From: Pectobacterium actinidiae
GTDB taxonomy: Bacteria; Pseudomonadota; Gammaproteobacteria; Enterobacterales; Enterobacteriaceae
NCBI RefSeq assembly: GCF_000803315.1
Contig: NZ_JRMH01000001.1
Coordinates: 310,001 to 374,000 of the forward strand
DNA: 64,000 nucleotides
Direction of reading: 5' to 3'
Shown here: positions 32,915 through 63,971 of the stretch, one piece after another
Numbering within the stretch: the stretch's first letter is position 1
How the letters are laid out: each line of letters starts with the position of its first letter
Notes under the pieces: generated by a model
Database searches by the model: none
What the model was told of the DNA's origin: nothing
What the model saw: only the letters and a program-made list of their open reading frames with translations
Translations under genes and position numbers: made by a program

Positions 32915-32925
32915 GGTGCCTTCTC

Positions 32926-34809: not shown

Positions 34810-34819
34810 GGGGGATATA

Positions 34820-35863
34820 ATGGAATGGAGAGCCGTGTCACGCGAGAAATCTCTGGAAATAGTTTCGGCTGCGATAAATTGCCGGTTCTCTGGCGAGGGG
34901 GTGAGAATTTCAACTGTATCTGAGTGCTTACGGAGTGTGCTGCATCAATATTCTGTATCCGATATCAAGGAGGCCAGGCAAGCTGTAGCCTCACTTCGAC
35001 TCACCAGTGCGGTAAGACGTAAGCTATCGCCTTTATGGCCAGACATTACAGATACTGGCGATGCTATACACCCGGGCATTATGGCGATACTGGACAGCCT
35101 GGCTGAATTGGGCGACGTGATTAGGTTACAGGGTGGTAAGTGGCTGACGGCACCTCTGCATGCGGTACGGACTAATAATAAGATGGCAATCTTACTTGGA
35201 GGGGATCCTACATATGCGCTTTCAACAGGTATGGTTACAAGAGCTGTTAGCAGGGTTCGCCTGGTTGAGCAAGAGGTTTGCGAAGGCATGGCGGAACTAT
35301 GGGATGCAAATGAGTGGATCGGTGCTCCGGTAGAAGGTAATGAAATATGGTCATTAAAGTTATTGGATAAAACCATATCCCGGTTTACCGATGCGCCTAA
35401 TGATGTTGGAGAAGCCACAGCATATGTGCGAGGTAAATGGATCCCCTTGCCAGAGCTACTTTCCCATGAAAAGAAGATCCTCTTATGTAGAACGTTTATT
35501 AGCACTGGTTTTTCCTATTTTTTGGGTGAATTTGTCGCGGGGCGTCTATGGAAAATGAGTTCCATTGAATCTTCTGATGATGTCAGAAGGCTACGCTTCT
35601 ATCTTGATATAAAAGAAAATTGTCCATTGAAAGTTAAAATTAAAATATCTCATGGGTTAGCAAGACTACGATTAGCTCGACGACTACCAGGAAGAGAATC
35701 TAAGGCACTTTTGCTCGGCTGGCGAGACTCAGGCCCTGAAGGCGAGCACTCATGGATAACGCATCATGTATTCCCTGAAGAAGTATTACCAATAGTACGT
35801 TGTGCTTTTGAGGGACTCGGTATTATTTTAATTAATGAATCTACGCGACGGCATGAAATATGA
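34820..35863 (+). CDS. druD: Druantia type I protein DruD
   Basis: 347 residues from the ATG at 34820, chosen because GAGGGGG lies about five bases upstream; the open frame extends back to a GTG at 34790 inside druC. No domain was recognised. It contains a WLTAPLHAVRTNNKMAILLGGDPT stretch and a basic region RLARRLPGRESK near the C-terminus. The stop overlaps the druE start as ATGA, implying coupled translation. Named by position in the type I Druantia order A-B-C-D-E. Confidence 0.72.
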   Translation: MEWRAVSREKSLEIVSAAINCRFSGEGVRISTVSECLRSVLHQYSVSDIKEARQAVASLRLTSAVRRKLSPLWPDITDTGDAIHPGIMAILDSLAELGDVIRLQGGKWLTAPLHAVRTNNKMAILLGGDPTYALSTGMVTRAVSRVRLVEQEVCEGMAELWDANEWIGAPVEGNEIWSLKLLDKTISRFTDAPNDVGEATAYVRGKWIPLPELLSHEKKILLCRTFISTGFSYFLGEFVAGRLWKMSSIESSDDVRRLRFYLDIKENCPLKVKIKISHGLARLRLARRLPGRESKALLLGWRDSGPEGEHSWITHHVFPEEVLPIVRCAFEGLGIILINESTRRHEI

Positions 35864-46064: not shown

Positions 46065-47324
46065 TCAGGCAACCTGAATATGTCTCTCAAAACGGTAAGC
46101 CGGTATGAATTTCTGCCGACAGGCATCAAGATAGTCCGACCACCATTGCATCATCTGCGTGCGTTCGTCGAGGTGCTCCGCCTTGTGGATATAGGCGGCG
46201 CGAACGTGGTTACGCTCTTGATGGCTCATCTGCCGCTCCACTGCATCTTTTGACCAGCGGCCTGATTCAATCAACGCGCTACAGGCCATCGTGCGGAAAC
46301 CATGACCGCAAACGTCCACCTGCGTGTCATAGCCCATCGTGCGCAGCGCCTTGTTGATGGTGTTTTCGCTCATCGGTTTGCGCGGGTCGTGGTCGCCGGG
46401 AAACAGCAACTCACTGCTACCGGACAGCAGTTTTAGCTGCTTCAGTACAGTTACCGTTTGTGTTGACAGCGGCACCAGATGCGGTGTTTTCATCTTCGCG
46501 CCGCGCTCTGAATAACGCACGCCCGGAATGGGTTCACGTTGCGCGGGGATGGTCCACATTGCGCCATCCAGATCGATCTCCGTCCAGCGGGCAAAGCGTA
46601 GCTCGCTGGAGCGAATAAAGATCAGCAGGTTAAGCTGCACCGCCAGACAGGTTAGTAATCTGCCGGAATAGCCTTCGATCCGTTCCAACATCTCCGGCAG
46701 CTTCTCCAGCGGTAGGGCGGGGTAGTGGTTTTTTGGCGGCGGCGCAATGGCTCCGGCCAGATCGTTGGCGGGGTTGCTGGCGATGAGTCCTTCCTGTACC
46801 GCATAGCGCATGATCGCAGTGGTGCGCTGCTGTATCCGCGCGGCGGTTTCCAGATTGCCTTTTCTCTCCGCCACCCGCAGCGGGATTAGCAGATCGGCCG
46901 TTTTCAGGTCGGTAACGGGGAATTTACCGATCAGCGGAAAGACGTGCAGTTCCAGCGAGCGCAGGGCTTTGGCGGCATGGGCCTCACTCCAGCGGATATT
47001 ACCCGCCACCCACTTGCGGGCGATCTCTTCAAAGGTATTGCCGTTTTTTCTCGCCTGCTTGTCCTGCTGTTTTTTTACGCCGGGATCGGCACCTGCACTG
47101 AGTACCGCACGGGCTTCCTCGCGTAGCTTACGGGCATTTGCCAGCGTGACGGTGGGGTAAGCGCCAAACGCCAGCTTTTTCTCTTTGCCGCCGAAGCGGT
47201 ATTTGAGATGCCAGAGTTTAGAACCGTTGGGTTTAATCAGCAGGTACAGACCCTGCGCGTCGCTGAGTTTGTAAGGTTTATCGAACGGCTTGGCGTTGCG
47301 GATGGCGGTATCTGTCAGAGGCAT
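46065..47324 (-). CDS. P4-type integrase of island 1
   Basis: 419 residues. The N-terminal arm-binding domain (TDTAIRNAKPFDKPYKLSDAQGLYLLIKPNGSKLW, DUF4102 type) is followed by the tyrosine-recombinase core, with R in RSSELRFARW, HGFRTMA (HxxR), MSHQERNHVR (H) and Y in RAAYIHK. All catalytic residues are present. The start is 164 bases inside the att copy at 47488, and it points away from the tRNA side. It is very similar to the integrase at 62475-63734, especially in the last 100 residues. It would insert and excise island 1 at the tRNA-Phe 3' end. Confidence 0.95.
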   Translation of the reverse strand: MPLTDTAIRNAKPFDKPYKLSDAQGLYLLIKPNGSKLWHLKYRFGGKEKKLAFGAYPTVTLANARKLREEARAVLSAGADPGVKKQQDKQARKNGNTFEEIARKWVAGNIRWSEAHAAKALRSLELHVFPLIGKFPVTDLKTADLLIPLRVAERKGNLETAARIQQRTTAIMRYAVQEGLIASNPANDLAGAIAPPPKNHYPALPLEKLPEMLERIEGYSGRLLTCLAVQLNLLIFIRSSELRFARWTEIDLDGAMWTIPAQREPIPGVRYSERGAKMKTPHLVPLSTQTVTVLKQLKLLSGSSELLFPGDHDPRKPMSENTINKALRTMGYDTQVDVCGHGFRTMACSALIESGRWSKDAVERQMSHQERNHVRAAYIHKAEHLDERTQMMQWWSDYLDACRQKFIPAYRFERHIQVA

Positions 47325-48085: not shown

Positions 48086-49210
48086 GTGAAAAAACGTATA
48101 AAAAAGATACTGTTAAGTAAAGCGTTGGATAAGTATTTTTCCACGGTTTCGCGACATAAACGAGGACAATTGCAGGAGTTCTATCGAATCAATGTTATCA
48201 AGCGTTCGCGTTTGGCTAACAGAAATATGGATGAAATTTCATCCATAGACATTGCAGAATATAGAGATAATAGATTATCGGAATTTAACGCCAGAACGCA
48301 AAAGCCGATAAGTGCGAATACTGTGCGACTGGAATTAGCATTGTTATCGGCGCTTTATAATCTGGCAAAAGTTGAGTGGGGCACATGCTCTATAAACCCT
48401 GTTGAAAATGTTCGCAAGCCTACCGTATCGTCAGGCCGTACCCGAAGGTTAACCACTCAGGAAGAACGACAGCTAACCAGATACTTCAAAGATAAAAATC
48501 CTGAATTATTGGCTATTTTTCAGATCGCATTGGAAACGGGAATGCGGCAAGGCGAAATTTTGTCGTTGAGATGGGAATATACCGATCTTCGCCTCGGCGT
48601 TGCCCATTTGCCTTTGACGAAAAATGGGACATCGCGAGACGTTCCATTATCATCAAAAGCACGGCAAATTCTGTGTGGTCTAGGTGAACGGCCACATCAT
48701 GAGAATGGCTATATCTTTAGCTACACGTCGAGTGGCTTTAAAAGCGCATGGCGTGTGGCTTTGAAGGCTCTGGCTATCGACGATCTACATTTTCACGATC
48801 TCAGACATGAAGCAATCAGCCGATTCTTTGAACTGGGAACGTTAAATGTTATGGAAGTGGCGGCGATATCAGGTCATAAATCAATGAATATGTTGAAACG
48901 CTATACCCACCTTCGTGCAACACACCTCGTGAGCAAACTGGATGCACATAAGAAACAGGCTAAAAAACTAGCATCCATCTTTGTTCCTTACCCAGCGGAT
49001 ATTGATGTCGATGATACAACGGTTACATTGAAATTCTCCGATCTTGATAACCTGTCTGTGACGGCTTCAACGCATGATGATGCCCTGAAAATTGCCTCTG
49101 TGGAATTACTTCGATTTCAGGCTATAGCAGCGAAAAACGGTAAGAGACTTCCGCCACCCGGCGCTATCTCAGTCAATTCAGTTGATAGGGTTCTTATCAG
49201 CCCACTTTAG
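48086..49210 (+). CDS. Tyrosine recombinase fused to a HicB-like domain
   Basis: 374 residues from a GTG at 48086. Residues about 10-290 are a complete tyrosine recombinase: R in [14 protein letters not shown] in [20 protein letters not shown] (HxxR), [15 protein letters not shown] (H and nucleophile Y). From about residue 300 the sequence [41 protein letters not shown]...NGKRLPPP has the beta-strand pattern and final PPP of the HicB partial RNase-H fold. HicB domains normally bind HicA toxins, and no hicA gene is adjacent. The gene is followed by the inverted-repeat-flanked segment upstream of mod, which suggests it may act on that segment. Confidence 0.8.
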
Positions 49211-49319
49211 CAATGTAGATAACTTTTATATGACGATGTTGAGCTAAATATCGTCATTTTTTATGTCGGGATCTCGACTAATCAGACTGTCTATCCAGAC
49301 GACGTGTTTTACATATCAC
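49211..49319. other. Gap between recombinase and inverted-repeat segment
   Basis: 109 bases, non-coding, containing the recombinase stop and AT-rich sequence. No strong hairpin-terminator was seen, so read-through into mod is possible. Confidence 0.35.
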
Positions 49320-49461
49320 ACTGATAATCCGGTGTGTTTTAGTGATTGTTGTACATAACATATGAATGTTACGAGTCATTGAGTCGATAGCAAAACTTAA
49401 TTTAGCACTTCAGAGCGAGGATGCCTGCTGATTCTGACTGATGTCACACCGGATTATCAGT
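49320..49461. repeat. 17-bp inverted-repeat pair flanking the mod1 5' region
   Basis: ACTGATAATCCGGTGTG at 49320-49336 is the exact reverse complement of 49445-49461. The 108-bp segment between them would contain any mod1 promoter, and the right arm ends at the base before the second candidate start codon (ATG 49462). It shares the core AATCCGGTGYGT and a following TTTTAG with the pair at 59088-59261. It is a candidate invertible switch or paired operator. Confidence 0.7.
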
Positions 49462-51528
49462 ATGGCAAATGAACGTATTACTGAATATAGCGCTAAACAG
49501 AAAGAAAATGCGGAACAACGTTGCAGTGTTGATGCTTTGGCCGAGGGCCAGAAGAAGGAGTCTCGTTCATCACTTTCTGATATCAGCAACGACCTCTTTG
49601 AGATCCCGAGCACAACTCCGAATTTTCGCACCGAACTGGCTGGTCAGCTTGCCGAACTGATTCCAGAGGCTGTTGCTGATGGTAAGCTGGATGTTGAAAA
49701 GCTCCGTGAGCTGCTGGCCGATGATGCGTCTGACAGTAATGAACGCTTTGGATTGTTCTGGCCGGGCAAAAAGCGCGCGCTACGTGCCGCACAAGCCCCG
49801 ACTACCGCCACCCTAAAACCAGATTTCGTCAATTCTAAAGAATGGGACACGACGCAGAATGTGTTTATCGAGGGAGACAACCTTGAGGTACTGAAGATCC
49901 TGCAACGACACTATCACAACAAGGTCAAACTGATTTATATCGATCCTCCTTATAACAAAGGTAAAGATTTTGTTTATCCGGACAATTACAGAGAGGGGTT
50001 GGACAATTATCTGGAGTGGACGCGGCAGGTGAACGAGGAAGGTAAGAAAGTTTCCACCAACAGCGAGACCGAAGGGCGTTATCACTCCAACTGGCTGAAC
50101 ATGATGTATCCGCGCCTGAAATTAGCCCGTAATCTGCTTACCGATGATGGGGTGATTTTTATTTCGATTGATGATCATGAACAGGACAACCTGAGAAAAT
50201 TATGTAATGAAGTCTTCGGTGAATCAAATTTGATTGCGGTTGTTCCAACCATTATGAATCTCAAAGGAAACCAAGACGCTTACGGATTCGCCGAAACTCA
50301 CGACTATGTTCTCGTCTATGCGAAAAAGAAAGAAGAAAGTGTTTTAGGTAAATTCCCTCTTGACGAAGAGGCTATCGAGGAGGACTGGGAGGAGGATGAG
50401 CATGGACTATTTAAGCGTGCCGATACTCTTCGCCGTACTGGGCAGGATGCGAGTCGTGAGCGTAGGCCAAAAGGCTGGTTTCCTATCTTCATTGCACAAA
50501 ATGAGGAGGTTTACGCTACGGATGATGATAAGCCAAATAAGTCGAGTGATGAAGTTGTCTGGCCAATCAACGATGATGGATTTGAATTATCGTGGACTTG
50601 GGGGAAGACAAAAATAAATTCAGAGAACTTTAATCTTGTGGTTGTTCGCCGTTCCGATGGGAGGCCAAATATTTACAAGAAACAGCGACCAGGAATTGGC
50701 GACGTTCCATCTAGTAAGCCGAAGTCAGTAATGTATAAACCGGAATACTCAACCAGTACGGCTACAACCCATCTTAAGACACTCTTCGACAAGAAGAAAT
50801 TATTTGAAACGCCAAAGCCTATTCCGTTCATAAAAGATGTTGTAAAAATCGGATCTCCAAATGGCGGCATAGTGCTGGATTTCTTCGCTGGTAGTGCCAC
50901 CACCGCCCACGCCGTAATGCAACTTAATGCTGAAGGCAACGGCAAGCGTCGTTTTATCATGGTGCAACTGCCGGAACCTACTCCGGAAGATTCCGAAGCA
51001 CACAAGGCAGGCTTTGCCACTATCGCTGATATCTCGCGCAAGCGCATCGAACTAGCGGGCGAGAAAATAAAATCCGATGTTGCAGAAAGCCAAGTGGATA
51101 CGGGCTTTCGCGCCTACAAACTGGCGGACACCAATTTTACCAAATGGCGTGTCACCAGCGATATCGAACCTGACAAGCTAACCCAGCATTTGCTCGACCT
51201 GCGTGGTAGTAGCGTTGATGATGCCAGTCCCGGTGACCTGCTTACTGAGCTGCTGTTAAAACTCGGCTATTCGTTGAACGAACATCTCAGTATGCAGACT
51301 ATCGCCGGGCTGGACATCTATGCCATCGCTGGCGATACCGATAAGCCACGCCTGCTAGCCTACTTAAACGAGCGAACCAAACCCACACTGGAACAATTGC
51401 GGGAACTGGTGAATACCGAACCTACGCGCCTGATCATTCTGGAAGATGCCTTCCACGGCGACGACGAACTGAAAACTAATATTGCTCAATATGCTAGGAG
51501 CAAAGGTATTGAGCTGAGGACGGCGTGA
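49441..51528 (+). CDS. mod: Type III-type DNA methyltransferase (Mod)
   Basis: 695 residues from the ATG at 49441; ATG 49462, just outside the inverted repeat, is an equally possible start, and neither has a good ribosome-binding site. The catalytic motif IYIDPPYNKGKDF (DPPY, about residue 168) comes before the AdoMet-binding motif VLDFFAGSATTAH (about 480), the beta-class order of type III Mod subunits. Its N-terminal ~100 residues and the region between motifs would hold target recognition. It methylates DNA and specifies the site for the complex. It overlaps the res gene by one base (TGATG). Confidence 0.9.
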   Translation: MSHRIISMANERITEYSAKQKENAEQRCSVDALAEGQKKESRSSLSDISNDLFEIPSTTPNFRTELAGQLAELIPEAVADGKLDVEKLRELLADDASDSNERFGLFWPGKKRALRAAQAPTTATLKPDFVNSKEWDTTQNVFIEGDNLEVLKILQRHYHNKVKLIYIDPPYNKGKDFVYPDNYREGLDNYLEWTRQVNEEGKKVSTNSETEGRYHSNWLNMMYPRLKLARNLLTDDGVIFISIDDHEQDNLRKLCNEVFGESNLIAVVPTIMNLKGNQDAYGFAETHDYVLVYAKKKEESVLGKFPLDEEAIEEDWEEDEHGLFKRADTLRRTGQDASRERRPKGWFPIFIAQNEEVYATDDDKPNKSSDEVVWPINDDGFELSWTWGKTKINSENFNLVVVRRSDGRPNIYKKQRPGIGDVPSSKPKSVMYKPEYSTSTATTHLKTLFDKKKLFETPKPIPFIKDVVKIGSPNGGIVLDFFAGSATTAHAVMQLNAEGNGKRRFIMVQLPEPTPEDSEAHKAGFATIADISRKRIELAGEKIKSDVAESQVDTGFRAYKLADTNFTKWRVTSDIEPDKLTQHLLDLRGSSVDDASPGDLLTELLLKLGYSLNEHLSMQTIAGLDIYAIAGDTDKPRLLAYLNERTKPTLEQLRELVNTEPTRLIILEDAFHGDDELKTNIAQYARSKGIELRTA

Positions 51529-54500
51529 TGAACAGTCATTCTCAAAATACGGGCTTTCAATTTGATTCGCATCAGCAATATCAGCTTGATGCCATCAACG
51601 CTGTGGTGGATTTGTTCGATGGCCAACCAAAGGATGCCGACAAGATCGCGATTGCCTTGCGTGGCAGCGTTGCCAGCCGTGAAGGTGAGCTGGATTTAGG
51701 CATCGAGCAGGTAATTGGTGCTATCGGCAATAATCTGGTGCTGGATGAAGACACTATTCTTGCTAATTTACAAACGGTACAGGATCGCAACGGGTTGGAG
51801 GTCAGCGGAAAGCTGGTTGATGGCAAACTGGATTTCGACATCGAAATGGAGACCGGTACGGGCAAAACTTACGTTTATCTGCGTACCGTTTTCGAACTGG
51901 CAAAGAAATATGGCTTTACCAAATTTATCATTCTGGTTCCCAGCGTCGCCATTCGTGAAGGCGTGAACACCAGTATTCGCCTGATGTGCGAGCACTTCCG
52001 TAGCCTCTATCCGGCGCAGCCTTTCGATGCGAATGTCTACAGAGGCGACAAGGCCGAGGAAGTACAGGCTTTTGCTACTGCAACCAACGTGCAAATACTG
52101 GTGATGACGATTGATGCGATACGTAGTGACAAGAATAAAAATGAAAAAAAGAATGCGCGCATCATTCACAGACCGTACGACAAGCTTAATGGCTTGCGTC
52201 CGTTGGATTACCTGAAAGGCACGCATCCTGTTGTGATCATGGATGAACCACAAAATATGGAATCACTGCTATCGCAGTCTGCTGTGGGTGATTTTGATCC
52301 TGTATTCACACTACGCTACTCAGCTACGCATAAGCAGCGGCGAAACCTGGTCTATCGGCTCGATCCGGTTGACGCGCACGATCTCGGTTTGGTGAAACAG
52401 ATCGTCGTGGCTGAAGTCGCACAGCACGGTGCGGATGTGGCTCCTTACGTCAAGTTGCTCGAAGTGAAAGACACGAAAGCCGCGAAGCTTGAACTGGCTT
52501 GCCGCAAGGCCGATGGCTCTATCGCGCGTCGTAGCAAAAAGGTCAAACCGCATCAGGAATTGTCAGACGTCACTGGAAATCCTGCTTATGCAGGCTGGCG
52601 TATTAATGCGTTGAGCATCGCCGCTTTCGGTGAACCAGCCAGTATTGAACTGACGCCGAACGGAAACCTGCTGCATGAAGGCGAATCCCTCGGGGGCGCA
52701 ACGGGCGCGATTTACAAGGAGATGATTCGGGAAACCGTGCGTGAGCATTTGCGCAAGGAAGCCATGTTGCACCCGAAGGGGATTAAAGTATTGAGTCTGT
52801 TTTTCGTAGACAAAGTGGCGAGTTTCCTCGGCGACGGGGTCAATAACGAAGACGCAAACGGCGAGTTTACCAAGTGGTTCGATGAGGTGTTCAGAGAAGA
52901 GCGTAGCAAGTCTGACGTCTACCAAAAATTACTGCCGCAGGATCCTGGCGAGTTACGGCGGGCGTATTTTTCCCAATTGAAAATGCGTGGTGGCACGACC
53001 TTTGTGGATTCATCTGGTACGACGGTCAAAGATGATGACGCTTACAAACTCATCATGCAAGATAAGCAGCGCTTGCTGGATGGTGATGAGCCTGTGCGCT
53101 TCATCTTTAGCCATTCCGCACTGCGCGAGGGTTGGGACAATCCCAACGTGTTTCAGATTTGTACGCTGCGTGAAATGGGCGCGGACACGGAACGTCGGCA
53201 AACGTTGGGACGTGGTCTGCGCCTGCCGGTTGCGAAAACAGTAAAAGGCTATGAGCGTGTTTCCGATCGTAGCGTTGCACAACTCACGGTAGTTGCTAAC
53301 GAGTCTTATGCTGCGTTCGCTCAGAACCTGCAAGCTGAATACCGGGAGGCGGGGGTAGCCATCGGACAGGTACGCCCTAATGAATTTGCCAAGTTGATGA
53401 AACGGGATCCTCATGGTGCGATGACCGATGACATGCTGGGGTTCAAGATGTCTTCTGCCATATTCAAGCATCTGGAAAACGCAGGATTCATCAAGGATGG
53501 TAAGACAACTTCCATGTTTCTGCCGGATGCAGCAGGGTTCTCACTACATTTGCCTGCTGAGTTCAGGCCCTACGAAACAGATATTATCCACTGCATCCTG
53601 AATGCGGGTATTGAGAAATATGTGAAGCCTGTAAGTGCGCGGGCAAAACGGAAATTCAACAAAGAGCTCTACGCCTCGCCGGATTTTGAGAGGCTTTGGA
53701 GCGCTATCAGCCAGAAAACCACTTATCGGGTGACAGTTAAACACCCTATGCTGGTTGAGACGTGCATAAAGGCGATCAAGGCTGAACCGAAAATCCAGCC
53801 GTTACGTATTGATGTCACTCGTGCTGGTGTCAGGGTGCTACGTGGCGGCACGCAAGGGCTAGAACTAGGGGCACGAACTGTCGATCTCAAAGGCAGTTAT
53901 GACCTGCCGGACATTATCGGTGAGTTGCAGCAAGGTACGTCTCTTACACGCAAGACGCTGGTGGATATTCTCATTGGTAGCGGAAGATTGGATGAGTTCA
54001 TTGCCAATCCGAACGACTTCATGGCGATGGTACGCCGTTGCGTAGAGGGTGAACTACAGCGCGTCATTGTTGAAGGCGTTCAGTATGAAAAGATCGGCGG
54101 TTCCATCTATGAACTCCGCGAGTTGCAAGCCGATGGCCTTGCCGAAAAGGATTTCTTCAAAGAGCATTTGTACCGCGTCGAACATCCTGAGAAAACCGAT
54201 TTTGATTACGTCGTGTTTGATGGCGGGCCGGACAGCCCGGAGCGAAAGTTCGCTGAGTTTCTCGATCACCGCGAGGATATCAGGCTGTTTATGAAGCTTC
54301 CGCCAAGATTCCAGATCGACACGCCGGTTGGCCCTTATAACCCCGACTGGGCTATCATCAAATCCGAAGAAGGTGAGGATCGAATCTACATGGTGCGTGA
54401 AACCAAGAGCACGATGGATGAACAAAAAAGGAGACCCTCCGAAAATGCCAAAATCAAGTCTGCCGAGGCACACTTCAGAGAAATTGGCATCGAGTATGCG

Positions 54501-54530
54501 GTTTCAGTACCTGAACAGTGGAATATCTGA
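51528..54530 (+). CDS. res: Type III restriction endonuclease subunit (Res)
   Basis: 1000 residues from the ATG at 51528 (GAGGA upstream; a GTG at 51525 is in frame). Superfamily 2 helicase motifs: METGTGKTYVY (Walker A, about residue 108), VIMDEPQNME (motif II), SHSALREGWDNPN and RRQTLGRGLRLP (motif VI). The C-terminal nuclease has YNPDWAII followed by RETKST (about 939-960), the PD-ExK pattern of Res subunits. With Mod it would cleave unmodified DNA after ATP-driven translocation or sliding. Converges with the second res gene across the hairpin at 54591-54622. Confidence 0.92.
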   Translation: MNSHSQNTGFQFDSHQQYQLDAINAVVDLFDGQPKDADKIAIALRGSVASREGELDLGIEQVIGAIGNNLVLDEDTILANLQTVQDRNGLEVSGKLVDGKLDFDIEMETGTGKTYVYLRTVFELAKKYGFTKFIILVPSVAIREGVNTSIRLMCEHFRSLYPAQPFDANVYRGDKAEEVQAFATATNVQILVMTIDAIRSDKNKNEKKNARIIHRPYDKLNGLRPLDYLKGTHPVVIMDEPQNMESLLSQSAVGDFDPVFTLRYSATHKQRRNLVYRLDPVDAHDLGLVKQIVVAEVAQHGADVAPYVKLLEVKDTKAAKLELACRKADGSIARRSKKVKPHQELSDVTGNPAYAGWRINALSIAAFGEPASIELTPNGNLLHEGESLGGATGAIYKEMIRETVREHLRKEAMLHPKGIKVLSLFFVDKVASFLGDGVNNEDANGEFTKWFDEVFREERSKSDVYQKLLPQDPGELRRAYFSQLKMRGGTTFVDSSGTTVKDDDAYKLIMQDKQRLLDGDEPVRFIFSHSALREGWDNPNVFQICTLREMGADTERRQTLGRGLRLPVAKTVKGYERVSDRSVAQLTVVANESYAAFAQNLQAEYREAGVAIGQVRPNEFAKLMKRDPHGAMTDDMLGFKMSSAIFKHLENAGFIKDGKTTSMFLPDAAGFSLHLPAEFRPYETDIIHCILNAGIEKYVKPVSARAKRKFNKELYASPDFERLWSAISQKTTYRVTVKHPMLVETCIKAIKAEPKIQPLRIDVTRAGVRVLRGGTQGLELGARTVDLKGSYDLPDIIGELQQGTSLTRKTLVDILIGSGRLDEFIANPNDFMAMVRRCVEGELQRVIVEGVQYEKIGGSIYELRELQADGLAEKDFFKEHLYRVEHPEKTDFDYVVFDGGPDSPERKFAEFLDHREDIRLFMKLPPRFQIDTPVGPYNPDWAIIKSEEGEDRIYMVRETKSTMDEQKRRPSENAKIKSAEAHFREIGIEYAVSVPEQWNI

Positions 54531-54590
54531 GTGTCTGCTGTAGCGGTATAGCGGTATGGGTCTGTGAGGAATAGGCTGGATAATCAGTGT

Positions 54591-54622
54591 GGTAAACCTG
54601 CTTCTTTGACGGCAGGTTTACC
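54591..54622. terminator. Bidirectional hairpin between convergent res genes
   Basis: GGTAAACCTGC (54591-54601) pairs perfectly with GCAGGTTTACC (54612-54622). T-runs are weak, but the position between the ends of two convergent operons fits a shared terminator. Confidence 0.65.
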
Positions 54623-54633
54623 AGATTTCTGTA

Positions 54634-57267
54634 TCAGGAGGCTATATGAGATACGGCCTCACGAATTATTGACCAGTCTTTATTTTCAACCCAGACAAAG
54701 AGGCATCGACCCTCACTGCGTCTGGCCCACAGTTCTCCGATTCGTTTCTTTTCTCGGCTATCTCGGGTATCACTGATATGCGATCCTTTATACTCAACAG
54801 CAACGAGTGGGCCATTGCTCATTTGTATCAAAAAGTCAGGATAGAATCGGTCTGAGGCCGTTTGCAACCAGAAAGAGGTTGGTTTTTTCTCCACATTACG
54901 TAACCACCAATCGACACCCTCGAGCCTGTTGGCAATAAATTCGGCACATTCAAATTCTTCTCCAACATCTTTCAGATTACCGATAACGGGATAGAAATGA
55001 CGTTTGAGATGAATAAACCCTGCATAACGAAAATCGTAAGCATATCGCCCAGGCTCCAACGACACGGCATGTTCGTCTAGCACTGCGAATTGTGATTCGT
55101 CATCAAACAAGTCGTTGAAGATGCGTTGCTTGGCGAGCACTAGCCCTGCTGCCATTTTTCGTTCCAACGCACCGCGCAAACGAAACTTTCGGTAGGCCAA
55201 TTCGTCCAGAGAGAACTCTCTTTTTTCCAACAAATAATCAACCACTACATTGATCCATGCGACCTTTTTGTCCCGTTCGGAATAAGGGAAAGGTAGATTG
55301 CGGTCCAGCCAATAGATCAGATCAGTAGCTTCCCAGCCATGTTCTTTACCGAATAATGCCAGTTGATTATCTAATCGTTCATAAACACTACATTCGATTT
55401 TCTCTAATTGAGAAATATTTAATGCAGCGCGATACATGGTTTCTACATCATGGGTAAATTCGCTATCAGAAAGCACTGGGTCAAAATCCTCTATTTCCCA
55501 GTCAGCATCTAAAAGTGGAGTTTCATCAAACACATCAAAGAACCCAGATTGCCGGTATGTGAGTAAAGGTATATGCGCAGTATGTCCCCGATCTGCGGGT
55601 GTTATTTCCTTTTGTAGTGACGCATTTTGTCTGGATGACGCCATTTCAAGCCGGTTGAGAACGTCTTTAGCAATTTCTGGATGCTTGAATGTGTCGGCCA
55701 ATTGTTGGATCTGTTTATTATTAGCGCCACCTTTTAATGTCAGAGTACCGCTCTCTGGTGAGATCTCTAGCTTGTCACGAAGTGATTTCGGTAATGTTTC
55801 CAAAGCGCTTTCATCTGGAAGGACGAGACTATTATCGGATTCGGGTAAAGGAATAACCAAATCGCCTTGGGGCGCGAAGAGATCTCCTGTTGATGGCGGT
55901 TCTCCATGGGTTTGAATCAAACTTTGTGTTTCGAGCCGTTCAAAACCACTTTGAACTAATCCATCACGCAATCCCTGAACTGTTGCCGCAAATTCTGATG
56001 ATACGACGTAGGCATAACAACGATTAAGTGCCTCATGTAATTTTCTTTTAACATGCGGCATACGTAATATTCGGCCGAGGATTTGTTCTACCGCCGTAGC
56101 GGAAGTAGTATTGCGGAAAGAGAATAGCACATACGCAAAAGGGCAATCCCATCCTTCACGTAGTTTATCGACAGTAATGATGAACTGAGGATAGTCAGGA
56201 TCCCCCGGTTTTTTACCCGATAATTCATCTTGAGCTCCTGTCGCTACAGCGATGGTATCAGCGGGTATGTTGAAATCATTAATCAGATGTTGTTTAACGC
56301 GCTCCGGCGTAAATGTCTCTTGCTCTTTTGCTTGGCGCTCGGCTTGTATCAACATCACAACAGGTTTGATTACTTCACCGGTTTGCTGGAATTCCTGAGC
56401 AGCCTCTTCTTCCAACTGCCGTAGTCGGCTAATAGCTTCTGCCATAGACCGCTGCCATTCTGGATGAACAGTGAGCTCCAAAGGTAACTTCAGCATATCT
56501 TCCGCTTGCAAGGTTGCAGCGGAGACACTCTTGAGGACATTGGATGGTTGATTCGCACGGTCAGGGGTTGCGGTCAACTCAAGTATGCACGCGGGGTTAA
56601 AGCGGACAAGAGTGTCGACAGCCAAGGGTGTTCCCTGATTATGCGCTTCATCAACAATAACAAAAGGGTGGCGTAGCCGGATGACATCCATGAGTGAATG
56701 TTCCCCCTTTTGTTCTGACGAAGTACCAGAGAAATGCGGCATTAGGCTGCCGTTTTGACGATAGACTCTCAAACCATCGTCAGTATCTCGCTTAAAACTC
56801 TGCATCGTGGCGACGATAATTGTGTTTCCGGTATTTAACGTGGCTGGTTGTATATATAAAGCTTCTTGAATATCCAACACATGTACTGAACCGAACAGAT
56901 CACGCATATCTTGGTATAGTAGTTCCCCGGGCGTTTTCAGTGAGTGGAGTGTTTGTTCACGAATGGGATCTGATGGAACCAGCCATAAGATTAGGGCGTG
57001 CTCTATACCAAGAAAATATTCGTTAACGCGTTTTATCGACTGACCGGCGATACGGGTTTTCCCGCCACCGGTTGGAACCCGTAAACAAATATAAGGTATC
57101 GCTTCTGCGCCAGGTAAGGGGGAATAAGGCAGTGCTCGGCCGAAACCTTTGAGTGTTGATTCGCGAAAAGCCTCTGCTGGATCTTGCAATTCTCTACAGC
57201 GGGAAAGATACGAAGAGAAATCATCAAGAAGTTGTTCCTGATATGATTTCAGACTGTTCAGAGCCAT
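54634..57267 (-). CDS. Second type III-like restriction/helicase subunit (Res)
   Basis: 877 residues. Helicase motifs: RVPTGGGKTRIA (Walker A, about residues 64-74), VIVDEAHNQG (DEAH, about 202), LTATPDRAN (motif III) and AVEQILGRILRMP (motif VI). The end, YPDFLIQ...VAVEYKGSHI (about 835-850), is a PD-ExK nuclease pattern. The sequence is clearly unlike the first Res, so this is a different lineage rather than a duplication. It overlaps the upstream methyltransferase gene by ten bases, so the two are coupled. Probably the cleavage subunit of a second restriction-modification system. Confidence 0.87.
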   Translation of the reverse strand: MALNSLKSYQEQLLDDFSSYLSRCRELQDPAEAFRESTLKGFGRALPYSPLPGAEAIPYICLRVPTGGGKTRIAGQSIKRVNEYFLGIEHALILWLVPSDPIREQTLHSLKTPGELLYQDMRDLFGSVHVLDIQEALYIQPATLNTGNTIIVATMQSFKRDTDDGLRVYRQNGSLMPHFSGTSSEQKGEHSLMDVIRLRHPFVIVDEAHNQGTPLAVDTLVRFNPACILELTATPDRANQPSNVLKSVSAATLQAEDMLKLPLELTVHPEWQRSMAEAISRLRQLEEEAAQEFQQTGEVIKPVVMLIQAERQAKEQETFTPERVKQHLINDFNIPADTIAVATGAQDELSGKKPGDPDYPQFIITVDKLREGWDCPFAYVLFSFRNTTSATAVEQILGRILRMPHVKRKLHEALNRCYAYVVSSEFAATVQGLRDGLVQSGFERLETQSLIQTHGEPPSTGDLFAPQGDLVIPLPESDNSLVLPDESALETLPKSLRDKLEISPESGTLTLKGGANNKQIQQLADTFKHPEIAKDVLNRLEMASSRQNASLQKEITPADRGHTAHIPLLTYRQSGFFDVFDETPLLDADWEIEDFDPVLSDSEFTHDVETMYRAALNISQLEKIECSVYERLDNQLALFGKEHGWEATDLIYWLDRNLPFPYSERDKKVAWINVVVDYLLEKREFSLDELAYRKFRLRGALERKMAAGLVLAKQRIFNDLFDDESQFAVLDEHAVSLEPGRYAYDFRYAGFIHLKRHFYPVIGNLKDVGEEFECAEFIANRLEGVDWWLRNVEKKPTSFWLQTASDRFYPDFLIQMSNGPLVAVEYKGSHISDTRDSREKKRIGELWARRSEGRCLFVWVENKDWSIIREAVSHIAS

Positions 57268-59018
57268 GTTTTCACCGCCAGTTCATAAGGAAGTTGATGG
57301 AAGGTAATGCCTAACTGATTGAGTTTCTTCTTATCAAACCGGGAGCGAGCGGCATATACGACTCGCGTACCGGAAAAATGTGGTGGGGTGATTTCATCAA
57401 GAAACTTCAGGGAACGATGATTAAGAACATTACCGCCAATATCTGAGCGATCTTTCAATATGCCGTTGTACAGAAGAAACACGGCTTTTTCCTGATGTAC
57501 ACCGAGGAATGGTGTGGCTGGCTGTTCCTTGGCTAAAGGTGATACTGTTAAGCCTGAGCCGGTTTCCATAAACCAGATAAATTCACGTAGTTGATTGAAT
57601 GTCACATCATGGCGAATAGGACCATTCGGTAGAAATAAAGGCTCCTTGGAAAGACGAAAATATTGAAAACCGCTGCCTAGTCCAGCTACCGAGTTGCGTT
57701 TCTTTCCAGTTAAGGGTACGTAACCGTCAATAGCTTTACGAATGCGCTCGCGTGTTTTATTTATCGCAACATTATTATCCATTTCTATAAGAATGAAATT
57801 TATTGGTTTTTTGTTTCCTTGGTTTAATTGAAGTACAGCGTGGGCGGTTGTTCCTGAACCAGCGAAACTATCAAGAACTACATCTCCCGGTTGAGAAACC
57901 ATTCCTATTAAATCAGCAACTACGGCTGAATCTTTTGGAAAAGGGAATGCTCCTGGACCGAGTATTTTTTCAACTTCAAGAGTTGCACCTCGACCATCTT
58001 TGTAAAAAACACTAAGCATCGGCTCTTCATCGATTTCGGACAAATAACTTTTACGATTAGGTATTGTTGTATGGTCTTTACCGAAATGAATACGTGGCGG
58101 AGAATCGGCCAATGCAGCTTTGGTTTTATTCTCTTCCCAACGCCAACCAGTTGAAGGTATAGCACAAGGTTGTTGAGTGATTGGATGAATAATAGGATAA
58201 CGAGGTCTATTTTCTCGCCCATCATCAGGGCCGTGAAAGTTATCAGGGAAATATAATCCCCTCTCATCTGACCAGTTATAATGTTTATGAGCCTTACGAG
58301 GATCATCTTTTGATAATGAACGATACCACGACATCATATCATTTCTTATTTTTATATGATCATTTAAGTGTTTTTTTCTTAAATTATTATAATGCTCTAA
58401 TACTTCATCAACCCCCGGCTTTTTTCTACGCCAGCGAGTTTTTTGTTTTTTCAAGAAGTCTTTGTTTTTAGAAAATGCGACTATATATTCGTGAGTTACT
58501 GCAACAAGTTTCGCATCTCCTTTTTTCCCTTTTCCCCAGACTATGGTTGCTATTTCATTAGGTGCACCAAATATTTCTCTCATCAGAGATTGAAGATTTC
58601 CTATTTCATTATCATCAATAGATACAAAAATAACACCATCATCACGAAGAAATTGTTTTAACAATACTAACCTAGGATACATCATGGATAGCCAGCGGTC
58701 ATGACGATCTAAAGTTTCACCTTCTTTACCGACAACCTCCCCTAGCCATTTTCTAATTTCAGGGCTATTGACGTTATCGTTGTATACCCAACCTTCATTT
58801 CCAGTATTATAAGGTGGGTCGATATAAATACATTTAACTTGGCCTGCATAACGTGGTAATAATGCTTTCAGTGCCTGTAAGTTATCACCTTGAACAATAA
58901 TATTCCCACTATCGTCTTGTCCATGAGATAAATCAGCATCATGTTCAAGCAAACGAAAGGGAACATCTTTGTGATGCTTAATAACGGCTTCTTTGCCGAT
59001 CCAATTTAACGTTGGCAT
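57258..59018 (-). CDS. Second DNA methyltransferase, type III Mod-like
   Basis: 586 residues starting at the ATG at 59018. CIYIDPPYNTGNEG (DPPY, about residue 67) precedes VLDSFAGSGTTAHAVLQLN (about residue 395), again the beta-class order. The region between carries the likely target-recognition part (RWRRKKPGVDEVL...). It pairs with the overlapping downstream helicase-nuclease gene. Its upstream region contains the second 17-bp inverted-repeat pair (59088-59261). More AT-rich than the first mod. Confidence 0.88.
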   Translation of the reverse strand: MPTLNWIGKEAVIKHHKDVPFRLLEHDADLSHGQDDSGNIIVQGDNLQALKALLPRYAGQVKCIYIDPPYNTGNEGWVYNDNVNSPEIRKWLGEVVGKEGETLDRHDRWLSMMYPRLVLLKQFLRDDGVIFVSIDDNEIGNLQSLMREIFGAPNEIATIVWGKGKKGDAKLVAVTHEYIVAFSKNKDFLKKQKTRWRRKKPGVDEVLEHYNNLRKKHLNDHIKIRNDMMSWYRSLSKDDPRKAHKHYNWSDERGLYFPDNFHGPDDGRENRPRYPIIHPITQQPCAIPSTGWRWEENKTKAALADSPPRIHFGKDHTTIPNRKSYLSEIDEEPMLSVFYKDGRGATLEVEKILGPGAFPFPKDSAVVADLIGMVSQPGDVVLDSFAGSGTTAHAVLQLNQGNKKPINFILIEMDNNVAINKTRERIRKAIDGYVPLTGKKRNSVAGLGSGFQYFRLSKEPLFLPNGPIRHDVTFNQLREFIWFMETGSGLTVSPLAKEQPATPFLGVHQEKAVFLLYNGILKDRSDIGGNVLNHRSLKFLDEITPPHFSGTRVVYAARSRFDKKKLNQLGITFHQLPYELAVKTWL

Positions 59019-59087
59019 TAGTCAGGATCCTGTCCAGTTTTATTATGCTGAGGGCAGGAGTCAGGTCGTGTAATACCGGTCAGCGGA

Positions 59088-59261
59088 TATTCAATCCGGT
59101 GCGTTTTTTAGGTAAAAAATAATTTTTAAGCCATTGTATTTAAATGACATTTAATCAATGTGGTTGAATACCCTCGAGAAGTGTTAAAATCATACTGTTT
59201 ATCATATAGCTGGCTGAGGGGCTGGCTGGAAGTGGAATGACGTCACGCACCGGATTGAATA
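59088..59261. repeat. 17-bp inverted-repeat pair upstream of mod2
   Basis: TATTCAATCCGGTGCGT at 59088-59104 is the exact reverse complement of 59245-59261, around a 140-bp AT-rich segment. A possible minus-strand -10 (TACAAT, 59138-59133) lies inside. The core AATCCGGTGYGT is shared with the pair at 49320-49461. The near arm is 70 bases upstream of the mod2 start. Confidence 0.7.
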
Positions 59262-59447: not shown

Positions 59448-59753
59448 TCAAATCCCCCAAAACATAAGATTGATAGCATCCTTGATCTCATCCGCGTAGT
59501 CGCCAAGATCCGCAATCACTTCACCAATCACCTCAACAGGAACACTCGACAGCTCTGTGGTCATCAGCCGATAATCTTCGCCGTCGATGCCGATCAGAGG
59601 GAACAGCGTTTTATTCACTTTCTCAGACAGGTGATGTGATTCGATAAGCGGAATGACCATACGCCGCTTGGGTGTCTCGACAATATCGCTTTGTACATCG
59701 ACAAACATTTTGTAGTGACTGGCGCGTTTGTATTGATAAACAATGAATTGCAT
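59448..59753 (-). CDS. ccdB: CcdB gyrase-targeting toxin
   Basis: 101 residues from the ATG at 59753 ([24 protein letters not shown]), the standard CcdB start and length; an in-frame TTG at 59762 overlaps ccdA. The C-terminus [12 protein letters not shown] keeps the W-G-I that CcdB uses to poison gyrase. It begins two bases after the ccdA stop. Likely functional. On an island it stabilises the element by killing cells that lose it. Confidence 0.95.
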
Positions 59754-59755
59754 GA

Positions 59756-59974
59756 TCACCAATTCCTGTTTTCATCTGCAAAGGAGCCATTCTGCGCGAT
59801 AAATCGGGCGACTTCTTCCATCCCTTCGCGGTTTTCCTTCTTCCACTCTTCAGCCTTGATACGGCGGGCTTCTTTGCCAATGGCGTCATTCACCAGCCCG
59901 GAAATATTGACTCCGGCGGCACTCAGAACCTGATAATTGTCTTTGTCCACGGTAACGCTGACGCGGTGTTTCAT
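59756..59974 (-). CDS. ccdA: CcdA antitoxin
   Basis: 72 residues, the normal length. The N-terminal ribbon-helix-helix ([40 protein letters not shown]) binds the operator, and the C-terminal tail ending FADENRNW wraps CcdB. GAGGA precedes the start. The palindrome AAGTATATACTT overlaps its promoter. Confidence 0.95.
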
Positions 59975-60032: not shown

Positions 60033-60776
60033 TTAGCCAAGATTCAAATCCAAACCCCTCAACTCATCAAATGTATAAACCCGAAAAACATTGCGGTGCT
60101 TCGCTTCCAACGGGATACGCTGATGGCTGACGATGGCGTATTTCACGCTATTGAATATCCGTTCAATAGCTCGCTTTATCTGCGGATCGGGCACGATATA
60201 GAAGACGTACATCCAACGTTTTTGAGTACGAGTTATCAAATGTTGGGTGATTATCGCCTGATAACGGGCTTTGGTTTTTAGATGGCGCTCAGTCTCAACG
60301 GCGATGACGGTTCCGTCTGGTAACGTTATCACCCCAGCCGGGCGATGATATACCTCATAGCGGCTGAGGAATGTTGAATCAGCGCCGCTGATCCACCCAT
60401 AAGCGCCTTTCTTCTCAAGAAGGAGCCGCGCTAGCTGACGATCAAGGCGCTGTATCAGTGTCCAGCCAGTGACTTTCGAGGGCTCAAACCGTGCAGGAAA
60501 ACCATCCTCATGGGGTGTGGCAACAACGGCTAATCCGCCATTGGTGATCCCCCACAGAGAGATTTTCACCATTCTGGTGTTTATTTCATGCTTTTGGATC
60601 AATCCCATGTCGATGGCTTTTGCCAGCAGCAGATAAAGCGGCTTGTGATTTTTATAATCAAAAAGCTGCATCAGGGTTTTAAAATCGCTGTAGGTTTCTT
60701 CTTTCAGAAAGGTGAGCAGACATCGCATTTTTTCGTGACTACGCGCCCGGCGTTCACGGTAATCGTAAATAAGCAT
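60033..60776 (-). CDS. MobC-like replication-relaxation mobilisation protein
   Basis: 247 residues from the ATG at 60776, chosen because AAGGAGG lies just upstream; the frame is open to 60863. The protein begins MLIYDYRERRARSHEKMRCLLTFLKEETYSDFKTLMQLF. It has winged-helix-like features and basic segments, and HRPAGVITLPDGTVIAVETERHLKTKARY in the middle. This resembles the MobC/replication-relaxation family that helps relaxases open oriT. No relaxase gene is present, so the island may be a remnant of a mobilisable element or may borrow a relaxase. Identification is by resemblance only. Confidence 0.5.
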   Translation of the reverse strand: MLIYDYRERRARSHEKMRCLLTFLKEETYSDFKTLMQLFDYKNHKPLYLLLAKAIDMGLIQKHEINTRMVKISLWGITNGGLAVVATPHEDGFPARFEPSKVTGWTLIQRLDRQLARLLLEKKGAYGWISGADSTFLSRYEVYHRPAGVITLPDGTVIAVETERHLKTKARYQAIITQHLITRTQKRWMYVFYIVPDPQIKRAIERIFNSVKYAIVSHQRIPLEAKHRNVFRVYTFDELRGLDLNLG

Positions 60777-61242
60777 GCATCCTCCTTCACATTTTATTTG
60801 GCTGGTTCTCTCTTTTGGCTTTATCGCCTCATTGCATGGGCGCATACCTTCGCCCACTGGCATGAGTCGACGTCATGAGGCGATCTCGTGGGGATAAAGA
60901 GGTGGCAGCTTTGCAGCCATGCGCCGGAAAACACATTTTCCGGCACAGAATGGCGTGCGCCAGTTCATGCGGGCTGGACGCCCTTATTGCCTGTCGCATG
61001 GGGATAATGTCGCGGCTGGACGCCACGCCAAAACCCCCAACGTCAACGGCGGCACACCGTCGCGCGCTACGCGCGACTACCCCCTTTGAGACGCCGTTTT
61101 TAGCCCACTTTTTCTTTTGCCCGTTCCGGTCAGCGAAAAAATGGGAAAACGCCTTCAAAGTGGGTAGTCGCGCCTCGCTACCGGCTGGTGGCCGGAGACT
61201 TAGCCGCGACGGTGTGCGGGGCTGAAGCCCCCCAAATAAACC

Positions 61243-62474: not shown

Positions 62475-63734
62475 TTAGCCAGCCGAATGACTCCGCGCAT
62501 AGATATACGGTGCGACGTAGCCCTCACGGTTGACGTCCAGATAATCCGACCACCACTGCATCATTTCGATTCTGGCTTCCAGATGTTCCGCTTTATGTAC
62601 ATACGCCGCCCGTACACCGTTGCGTTCTTTGTGGCTCATCTGCCGCTCAATGGCATCCTTTGACCAGCGTCCGGACTCGTTCAGGGCGCTACAGGCCATG
62701 GTTCTGAAGCCGTGGCCGCAGATTTCGGTTTTGGTGTCATAGCCAATCACGCGCAGCGCCTTGTTGATGGTGTTTTCACTCATCGGCTTGTTCAGGGTAT
62801 GTGCGCCGGGAAAAACGAAGACCGATTCGCTAGAAATCGCCTGAATCTTTTTCAGCAGGGTGACTGCCTGCCGTGACAGCGGCACCAGATGTTCATCCTT
62901 CATCTTTGCGCCACGCTCTGAGAACCGCACGCCGTTTACCGCTTCGCGCTGGGCGGGCACGCTCCAGATATGCGCTTTCAGGTTGAATTCATCCCAGCGG
63001 GCAAAACGTAGTTCACTGGAGCGCAGGAAAACATGCAGATTCAGCTCCAGTGCCAGACGGGTGAGCATCCGGCCTTTGTAGTTCTCCATCTTCTCCAGCA
63101 GTTCAGGCAGGCGTTTTAGCGGCAGGGCGGGATGATGTTGGGTCGCCACCGGGGTCACGACGCCGTCCAAATCGTAAGCCGGATTGTATTTGATGACGCC
63201 CTGTTGTACGGCGTGGCGCATGATTTTGGTCAGATGCTGGCGCACTCGTCCGGCGACGTCATGCACCCCTTTATCGTCAATGGCCTTAACCAACTGCGCG
63301 AGATGGCGGGTTTCAACCTGCGCGATATCCATCGAGCCAATCGCGGGGAAAACGTAGCGTTTCAGGCAGGTGAGGATTTTATCGGCGTGGGCTTCCGACC
63401 AGAGTTTCAGGCTGCTGGTGTGCCACGTCTGAGCGAGATACTGAAAGGTGCGGGATTCATCAGCTGTGAGATTGTTCGTTTTGCGAAGCTGAGAAGGGCT
63501 GATGCCGGATGCCAGCAATTTACGCGCCGCATCGCGCTTTTCGCGGGCTTCCGCCAATGTAGTTTGCGGGTAGGGGCCAAAGGCCAGACGGTTTTCTTTA
63601 CCGCCGAAGCGATAGCGGAAATACCATAGCTTAGCGCCGCTGGGTGATACCGTGAGGTACAGGCCTTGCGAGTCGGTGAGCTTGTAAGATTTTGCGAGAG
63701 GTTTCGCGGATCGGACTTTGCTGTCAGTTAACAT
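62475..63734 (-). CDS. P4-type integrase of island 2
   Basis: 419 residues from the ATG at 63734 (GGGAG upstream, MLTDSKVRSAKP typical); the frame is open to 63755. The N-terminal DUF4102-type arm-binding domain (YKLTDSQGLYLTVSPSGAKLWYFRYRFGGKENRLAFGPYP) precedes the catalytic core, with R in RSSELRFARW, HGFRTMA, MSHKERNGVR and Y in RAAYVHK. Intact. It lies directly next to tRNA-Phe, as expected for the island that integrates there. It is strongly similar to the integrase of island 1, explaining why both use the same site. Confidence 0.95.
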   Translation of the reverse strand: MLTDSKVRSAKPLAKSYKLTDSQGLYLTVSPSGAKLWYFRYRFGGKENRLAFGPYPQTTLAEAREKRDAARKLLASGISPSQLRKTNNLTADESRTFQYLAQTWHTSSLKLWSEAHADKILTCLKRYVFPAIGSMDIAQVETRHLAQLVKAIDDKGVHDVAGRVRQHLTKIMRHAVQQGVIKYNPAYDLDGVVTPVATQHHPALPLKRLPELLEKMENYKGRMLTRLALELNLHVFLRSSELRFARWDEFNLKAHIWSVPAQREAVNGVRFSERGAKMKDEHLVPLSRQAVTLLKKIQAISSESVFVFPGAHTLNKPMSENTINKALRVIGYDTKTEICGHGFRTMACSALNESGRWSKDAIERQMSHKERNGVRAAYVHKAEHLEARIEMMQWWSDYLDVNREGYVAPYIYARSHSAG

Positions 63735-63895
63735 ATGAGGGTCACTCCCGTTCATCGAACTGAATGACCCGCAATCTGACCCACAAATTCCCCGATACGA
63801 AGGGATAAATCAAAACGCATCGGAAAAGATTTTTACGCCAACTTATTGAATCGCAACAACATAGGGATTGATAAGGAGGCATAAAAAAGGAAAGA

Positions 63896-63971
63896 TGGTG
63901 CCCGGACTCGGAATCGAACCAAGGACACGAGGATTTTCAATCCTCTGCTCTACCGACTGAGCTATCCGGGC
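63896..63971 (-). tRNA. tRNA-Phe (anticodon GAA), island target
   Basis: 76 bases including an encoded CCA end. Read on the minus strand it begins GCCCGGATAGCTCAGTCGGT, has the anticodon loop TTGAAAA and T-arm GGTTCGATTCC, and folds as a standard cloverleaf nearly identical to E. coli tRNA-Phe. The 3' 20 bases (63896-63915) serve as the attachment site and were restored by the integrating island. Confidence 0.97.

Follow-up and report, generated by a model that had tools for sequence, protein, structure and literature searches.

Short inverted repeats around a promoter-sized segment, flipped by a tyrosine recombinase, make up the fimS switch. The known cases of variation in type III mod genes proceed, to our knowledge, by simple repeats. 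Invertible promoters of the fimS kind are also described for RecV, a tyrosine recombinase that serves several loci (the relevant passages of PMC5903667), and reversible variation of restriction-modification (R-M) methyltransferases is described in the corresponding passages on phasevarion type III mod genes (PMC11868660) and on hsdS invertons, whose inversions are well known and lie in coding sequence (PMC11892184, PMC5903667). Invertible promoters for methyltransferases have been raised as a possibility in one passage (PMC10333322), and the Mycoplasma pulmonis recombinase HvsR is credited, in the part of PMC2268961 that deals with it, with rearrangements at both vsa (surface) and hsd (R-M) loci through distinct sites. 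Among the closest described systems is the R64-type Rci/sfx shufflon, for which the passages of Katalinic et al. 2025 (PMC11852207) on site structure give a variable 12-bp left arm, a conserved 7-bp core and a conserved 12-bp right arm, with head-to-head sites whose right arms lie within the inverted segment and a recombinase bearing an extra C-terminal domain. Here we describe an element of related design in a 64,000-nt window of Pectobacterium actinidiae (GCF_000803315.1, contig NZ_JRMH01000001.1, positions 310,001–374,000 of the forward strand; G000 among the genomes compared), in which a segment at 49337–49444 is invertible, is probably flipped by the adjacent Rci-family recombinase and would, as a promoter switch, turn the type III methyltransferase gene mod1 ON and OFF.

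The locus shares with the sfx shufflon the extra recombinase domain, the asymmetric sites and their head-to-head arrangement, and differs from it in its cores, CTGATAA and TATTCAA, and in that one short non-coding segment precedes a methylase where the shufflon has alternative pilV ends. It resembles the fimS and RecV promoters in its short repeats, promoter-sized segment, tyrosine recombinase and several loci per recombinase, but the recombinase is of the Rci type and the R-M genes targeted belong to types III and IIG. In contrast to the phasevarions and the hsdS invertons, it is a non-coding segment before the methylase that inverts. With HvsR it shares the idea of one recombinase for surface and R-M loci; the organisms and enzymes are unrelated, and the R-M target is hsd there and a short segment before type III or IIG genes here.

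Two perfect 17-bp inverted pairs lie exactly where the original prediction had placed them: pair 1 (ACTGATAATCCGGTGTG at 49320–49336, reverse complement at 49445–49461) encloses 108 bp and pair 2 (TATTCAATCCGGTGCGT at 59088–59104, reverse complement at 59245–59261) encloses 140 bp. If the four bases were equally frequent, chance would supply 0.0007 perfect 17-bp inverted pairs within 200 bp in 64 kb; a scan of the whole window (arms of at least 14 bp, spacing of at most 400 bp) returned 8 inverted pairs, and AATCCGGT occurs in pairs 1 and 2 only. The sequence that both pairs had been said to share, AATCCGGTGYGT, is incomplete in the right arm of pair 1, which reads AATCCGGTGTGA, and full-length in the other three arms. 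The two pairs had also been credited with the same geometry, which is incorrect with respect to the genes, as the TTTTAG end is distal to mod1 but adjacent to mod2.

Written in the sfx layout, the sites of the window read CTGATAA-TCCGGTGTG (pair 1) and TATTCAA-TCCGGTGCG (pair 2). Site 1L (49320–49339, plus strand) has its core at 49321–49327 and its right arm, TCCGGTGTGTTT, at 49328–49339, and site 1R (49442–49461, minus strand) has the right arm TCCGGTGTGACA; the sites of pair 2, one proximal to mod2 (59088–59106, plus strand) and one distal (59243–59261, minus strand), have the right arms TCCGGTGCGTTT and TCCGGTGCGTGA, respectively. The two sites of each pair have one and the same core, and between the pairs the cores differ at 5 of 7 bases. 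Among 25 shufflon-type sites in nine loci, three of them with a verified PilV (L010, L020, and L021), the core is TTGCCAA, GTGCCAA, CTGCCAA or CTGTCAA, mostly the first two in shufflons, and is followed by TCCGGTnnnTGG (TCCGGT..TGG). The TCCGGT right arm is common to the four sites of the window and the 25 of shufflon type, and this motif is thereby shared with sites next to other Rci genes, including those of pilV shufflons. Its constancy is partly built in because the sites were gathered by exact CAATCCGGT or AATCCGGT, AATCCGGT being part of the search words; the differences between the cores owe nothing to this choice, and deviating sites, such as the distal arm in G415, escape this search. 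Within the 17-bp repeat, the part common to all sites is presumed from these comparisons to be the Rci arm and the part private to each pair the crossover core, and with different private cores the two switches would stay apart. The pattern AATCCGGT-N90-120-ACCGGATT has matches in 14 of 392 family genomes, six of which are this switch, and the reversed pattern in 8; two patterns searched in viral contigs gave no match.

In nature, segment 1 occurs inverted precisely from arm to arm. With the arrangement of the window termed orientation A and the opposite one B, a search with segment 1 and its flanks matched 6 of 392 genomes of the family sample; the segment is held by 7 of 25 genomes of the genus and by 2 of 9 in the genus of G344, and three of the ten genomes matching in the genus search (G396, G406, and G408) match the left flank only. 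Orientation A is found in the window and in G393, G395, G409, and G344, and orientation B in G014, G402, G308, G151, and G415. In Escherichia coli, 6 of 5,426 genomes carry a type IIG methylase behind this kind of switch (matches covering at least 80% of the query), three in orientation A (NCTC9112, 2013C-3033, and SCU-171) and three in B (2015C-3121, STEC2018-553, and a plasmid of SWHEFF_58), and two additional PLSDB plasmids are in orientation A. The segment next to a methylase thus occurs 10 times in A and 8 times in B among 18 loci, which include three near-identical pairs (L082/L083, L086/L087, and G000/G393) and leave out G290 (orientation A, mod1 detached) and NZ_CP007394 (backbone match only). 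The search for both orientations in related islands that the original prediction had proposed is therefore positive for segment 1.

Pairwise comparison places the inversion precisely. Plasmids CP057134 (L082) and NZ_CP055049 (L084) have flanks that are 100/100% identical (40/60 bp) and a methylase that is 99.9% identical over 1500 nt; their inner sequences are 53% identical as they stand and 100% identical when one is inverted. The same is seen for G409 and G402 (flanks 98/100%; inner sequence 50% as is, 100% inverted), L085 and L088 (55%, 97%), the window and G014 (52%, 90%), and the window and G415 (52%, 97%). The controls of equal orientation, window/G393 and L082/L083, give 100% as is and 53% inverted. 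One and the same methylase, WP_001368214.1, is common to E. coli NCTC9112 (A), 2015C-3121 (B), and STEC2018-553 (B). Segment lengths are ~90–110 bases both in the Pectobacterium relatives and in E. coli, and the Pectobacterium segment 1 sequence had no match in E. coli.

The switch query matches 571 E. coli genomes and, beyond the six, at least 54 among the matches listed share one 43-bp outer-flank match. The 40-bp flank to the left of the chromosomal E. coli switch thus also occurs in E. coli genomes without the switch, and in the one examined, O157:H7 PV15-279 (L142, 390–450), other DNA follows from the first core bases. The E. coli chromosomal module was perhaps inserted at the core.

The recombinase gene (48086–49210, plus strand; 374 aa; Pfam Phage_integrase, E 1e-25) lies upstream of pair 1 and is intact, as had been proposed. 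Residues R154, K179, H237, R240, H264, and Y273, which we take to be the catalytic residues of a tyrosine recombinase, are unchanged in all 12 recombinase sequences aligned. The protein is 64% identical to site-specific integrases beside pilV in E. coli (two E. coli matches examined), and in a Pectobacterium relative (L010) the recombinase adjoins a Shufflon_N protein (E 5.6e-44). These sequence relationships identify the enzyme as homologous to Rci, the invertase of the pilV shufflon, which takes the place of FimB/E, the enzymes to which it had first been likened. No PilV is encoded by the five genes tested in 48086–59018, and there is one segment per gene, before methylases, so the locus lacks the several segments exchanging pilV 3′ ends that mark a shufflon.

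An extra C-terminal domain of ~75 residues (48980–49207 in the window) aligns in 12 of 12 members, the Rci of the E. coli shufflon included, and is of a type absent from Cre, XerC, and XerD. Searched alone by predicted structure, it is predicted to have a HicB-antitoxin-like fold of its own, which a structure search with the whole recombinase model did not reveal. The C-terminal domain of Rci-family recombinases is predicted to be HicB-like family-wide, and the "recombinase-HicB fusion" of the original prediction, accurate as to the fold, is an ordinary part of the family.

Nine loci of the segment 1 type (G000, G393, G409, G395, G402, G344, G014, G415, and G290) have an Rci gene directly adjoining; a single Rci homologue (66%) is present on each of the plasmids CP057134 and NZ_CP134667, and on NZ_CP055049 a tyrosine recombinase is annotated next to pilV. 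In the proposed mechanism, the adjacent Rci recombinase would flip segment 1 by strand exchange within the 7-bp core, the CTGATAA pair recombining with itself and not with TATTCAA or the shufflon core TTGCCAA. The start codon, ATG 49462, would remain outside, and the segment would reverse the direction of a promoter, with orientation B being ON and orientation A OFF for mod1.

Behind the two repeat pairs are two type III R-M operons, both systems being assigned to type III by PADLOC in keeping with the two restriction systems proposed originally, each with Mod and Res in overlapping open reading frames (ORFs). The operon of mod1 (49462–51528; MTase_III, E 2.7e-179) and res1 (51525–54530; REase_III, E 5.4e-253), on the plus strand (49462–54530), is convergent with that of mod2 (57258–59018; MTase_III, E 5.9e-216) and res2 (54634–57267; REase_III, E 6.9e-109) on the minus strand (54634–59018). 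The cargo is not constant: in one island slot, with an adjoining recombinase gene 96–99% identical, two methylase types stand behind the segment, type III mod1 in the window, G393, G395, G344, G014, and G415, and a IIG-like methylase, judged by its first 30 residues and conserved start, in G409 and G402. In G308 and G151, where the nearest Rci is ~30 kb away, the methylase is of the IIG type and is accompanied by a specificity subunit. Segments of this kind thus stand before methylases of two unrelated types, III (mod) and IIG, E. coli included. The mod1 centre in G344, G014, G393, G415, and G290 and the mod2 centre in G395, G415, and G290 are unlike those of the window, the ends being ~88–97% identical, as expected of swapped target-recognition domains.

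The position of pair 1 at the 5′ end of mod1, as first described, holds for the mechanical ORF, whose start at 49441 takes in the right arm; by comparison with relatives, the mod1 start is likely ATG 49462, the first base past the arm. The first eight residues, MANER[I/V]TE, are common to Mod1 and the IIG enzymes and follow directly after the site (49462–49485 in the window; L082 8032; L124; L126), and since these N-terminal residues are shared by the two types the start region seems to travel with the switch. With start sites taken as annotated, 17 mod1 homologues were read out of at least 120: nine start with MANERITE, three have a related start and five start ~40–45 residues later. Six E. 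coli type III mod genes (five of 302 records in one search and one of 64 in another, from those listed) have no repeat pair of at least 11 bp in the 300 bp upstream and no MANER start. In Brenneria alni (L076/L077) a different ORF now adjoins the right site, and a new ATG lies in frame upstream of mod1.

For pair 2, the original prediction held that the recombinase may flip this promoter segment as well; among the genomes, both orientations are seen for segment 1 alone. Segment 2 (59105–59244), a putative invertible segment, is found in G000, G395, and G415 at 91–94% identity, and all three show one orientation; only the resemblance of its sites suggests that the same enzyme has a second switch here. 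Segment 1 is in A, A, and B in these three genomes with segment 2 constant, so the two segments are not locked together. Segment 2 had no match in plasmids or E. coli.

Several observations weigh against the proposed switch. The only Rci found in G308 (E up to 1e-40) is ~30 kb off, at a shufflon, and two chromosomal E. coli loci (30–35 kb read) have no annotated shufflon recombinase, just an "integrase domain-containing protein". In B. alni (G290) segment 1, in orientation A, and the recombinase lie ~10 kb from mod1, and mod2 is without segment 2. Of the 7 bases of the shufflon core, (G/T/C)TGCCAA, 3 are changed in the core of pair 1 and 3–4 in that of pair 2, one right arm of G415 has a base change, and paired sites were not found at 3 of the 13 recombinase loci scanned (L016–L018), the available DNA of L016 and L017 ending just upstream of the gene. 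Segment 2 is inverted in none of its three genomes. In consensus scans and a position-weight score compared with shuffled sequence, no sigma-70 promoter in segment 1 or 2 scores clearly above shuffles, and the better strand of segment 1 in Pectobacterium and that of the E. coli segments and segment 2 point in reverse ways.

Because there is no clear promoter, and because the better strand is not the same for segment 1 of Pectobacterium, for the E. coli segments and for segment 2, the ON orientation can be assigned only tentatively. In eight segment 1 sequences of Pectobacterium and relatives, the better strand, with TTGCnA-16-TAA[C/G]AT (or a one-base shift), scores 7.5–7.9 bits versus 4.5–6.1 for the other, shuffles averaging ~7, and is directed toward the gene in B. 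In the window this promoter-like sequence, TTGCTA-16-TAACAT (49366–49393, minus strand), is weak, conserved in relatives, no better than shuffles in score and currently directed away from mod1. In segment 2 the highest-scoring promoter-like sequence, TTGAAT-15-TAAAAT with TGn (59164–59190, plus strand), is ~1 standard deviation above shuffles and is now directed away from mod2. A terminator-like hairpin formed by the left arm of pair 1 and the following TTTT (49317–49336, plus strand) stands between the recombinase and mod1 in orientation A; this T-rich arm hairpin faces the gene in A, not in B, its position shifting with orientation in relatives. The case for read-through in B is weakened by a second terminator-like hairpin (49230–49257), which lies upstream, between recombinase and segment, in both orientations. 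On balance we lean toward B as the ON orientation of mod1, and since the window carries A, mod1 may be OFF in this assembly.

Inversion by another recombinase (XerCD, the island integrases or a plasmid-borne Rci), with the adjacent gene a bystander, would accommodate G308 and the two chromosomal E. coli loci, where no Rci gene adjoins, but leaves aside the nine loci at which one does and the TCCGGT arm common to these and shufflon sites; we regard it as unlikely. Inversion might instead alter translation and not transcription, the segment end changing the start region, as an ORF start with an in-frame ATG at 49441 lies inside the segment in A and open frames extend into it in B in G308 and G151. 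An in-frame stop lies just upstream in G014 (B), however, and MANERITE from ATG 49462 is common to both orientations, which makes this account improbable. The occurrence of AATCCGGT in both pairs near two methylase starts could also suggest operators of a shared regulator, with neutral orientation differences, an alternative named at the outset; it explains neither why the segment is inverted precisely from arm to arm, its inner sequence remaining 100% identical, nor the match to shufflon sites, is refuted as a full account for pair 1, and is very unlikely overall. The other initial alternative, a 10-kb R-M transposon or cassette with the outer arms at 49320 and 59261 as its terminal repeats, fits the varying R-M cargo of islands at this slot, the rearranged order in B. 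alni and the PV15-279 flank that continues into other DNA from the first core bases, but hardly survives the different cores of pairs 1 and 2 and the fact that, in the DNA read from G409, G402, G308, G151, and E. coli, the pair 1 type is present with other cargo and no pair 2.

With the switch by the adjacent Rci recombinase as the preferred account, a broader proposal can be made tentatively. One Rci-type enzyme might read the core as an address, TTGCCAA for the pilus tip, CTGATAA for the first and TATTCAA for the second R-M switch, with no crosstalk; in G308 and on the IncK2/Z plasmids, the pilus-shuffling recombinase would switch R-M in trans and so couple mating-partner choice to defence state, and a module with the start codon and first eight codons would have passed between unrelated methylases. 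We hold this to be possible, though somewhat doubtful as a whole. Katalinic et al. (PMC11852207) sought fully orthogonal enzyme/site pairs and, in the portion of their report concerned with this aim, state that these were not obtained; the three cores suggest a natural set of orthogonal sites.

The recombinase/R-M region resembles an island whose right end carries an integrase and tRNA-Phe. Two integrases with Arm-DNA-bind_3 (46065–47324 and 62475–63971), the second adjoining tRNA-Phe, have the recombinase and R-M cargo between them, together with a CcdB-like protein (59448–59762) and a MobC-family replication-relaxation protein (60033–60863). Elsewhere in the window are a hybrid polyketide synthase-nonribosomal peptide synthetase cluster at 7868–28497 (KS-AT-ACP, C-A-T-TE, three C-A-T modules and a luciferase-like monooxygenase) and, at 31262–41370, a possible further defence operon, in which a 1836-aa DEAD-box helicase with an MrfA Zn-binding domain is next to an unassigned ORF and a CoiA_N protein.

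Phase variation by inversion is already known, and the proposed link between shufflon recombinases and R-M control would be new; no paper connecting Rci-type sites to R-M promoters was found among the open-licence papers searched. The switch is directly testable in laboratory strains, because E. coli plasmids with identical flanks show both orientations. If the proposal is true, shufflon recombinases, which vary the pilus tip, would be joined with R-M defence, two subjects previously kept apart. Methylomes would then vary within a clone, and a defence that is ON in part of a population and OFF in the rest could explain how costly R-M systems are kept while plasmids are still taken up.

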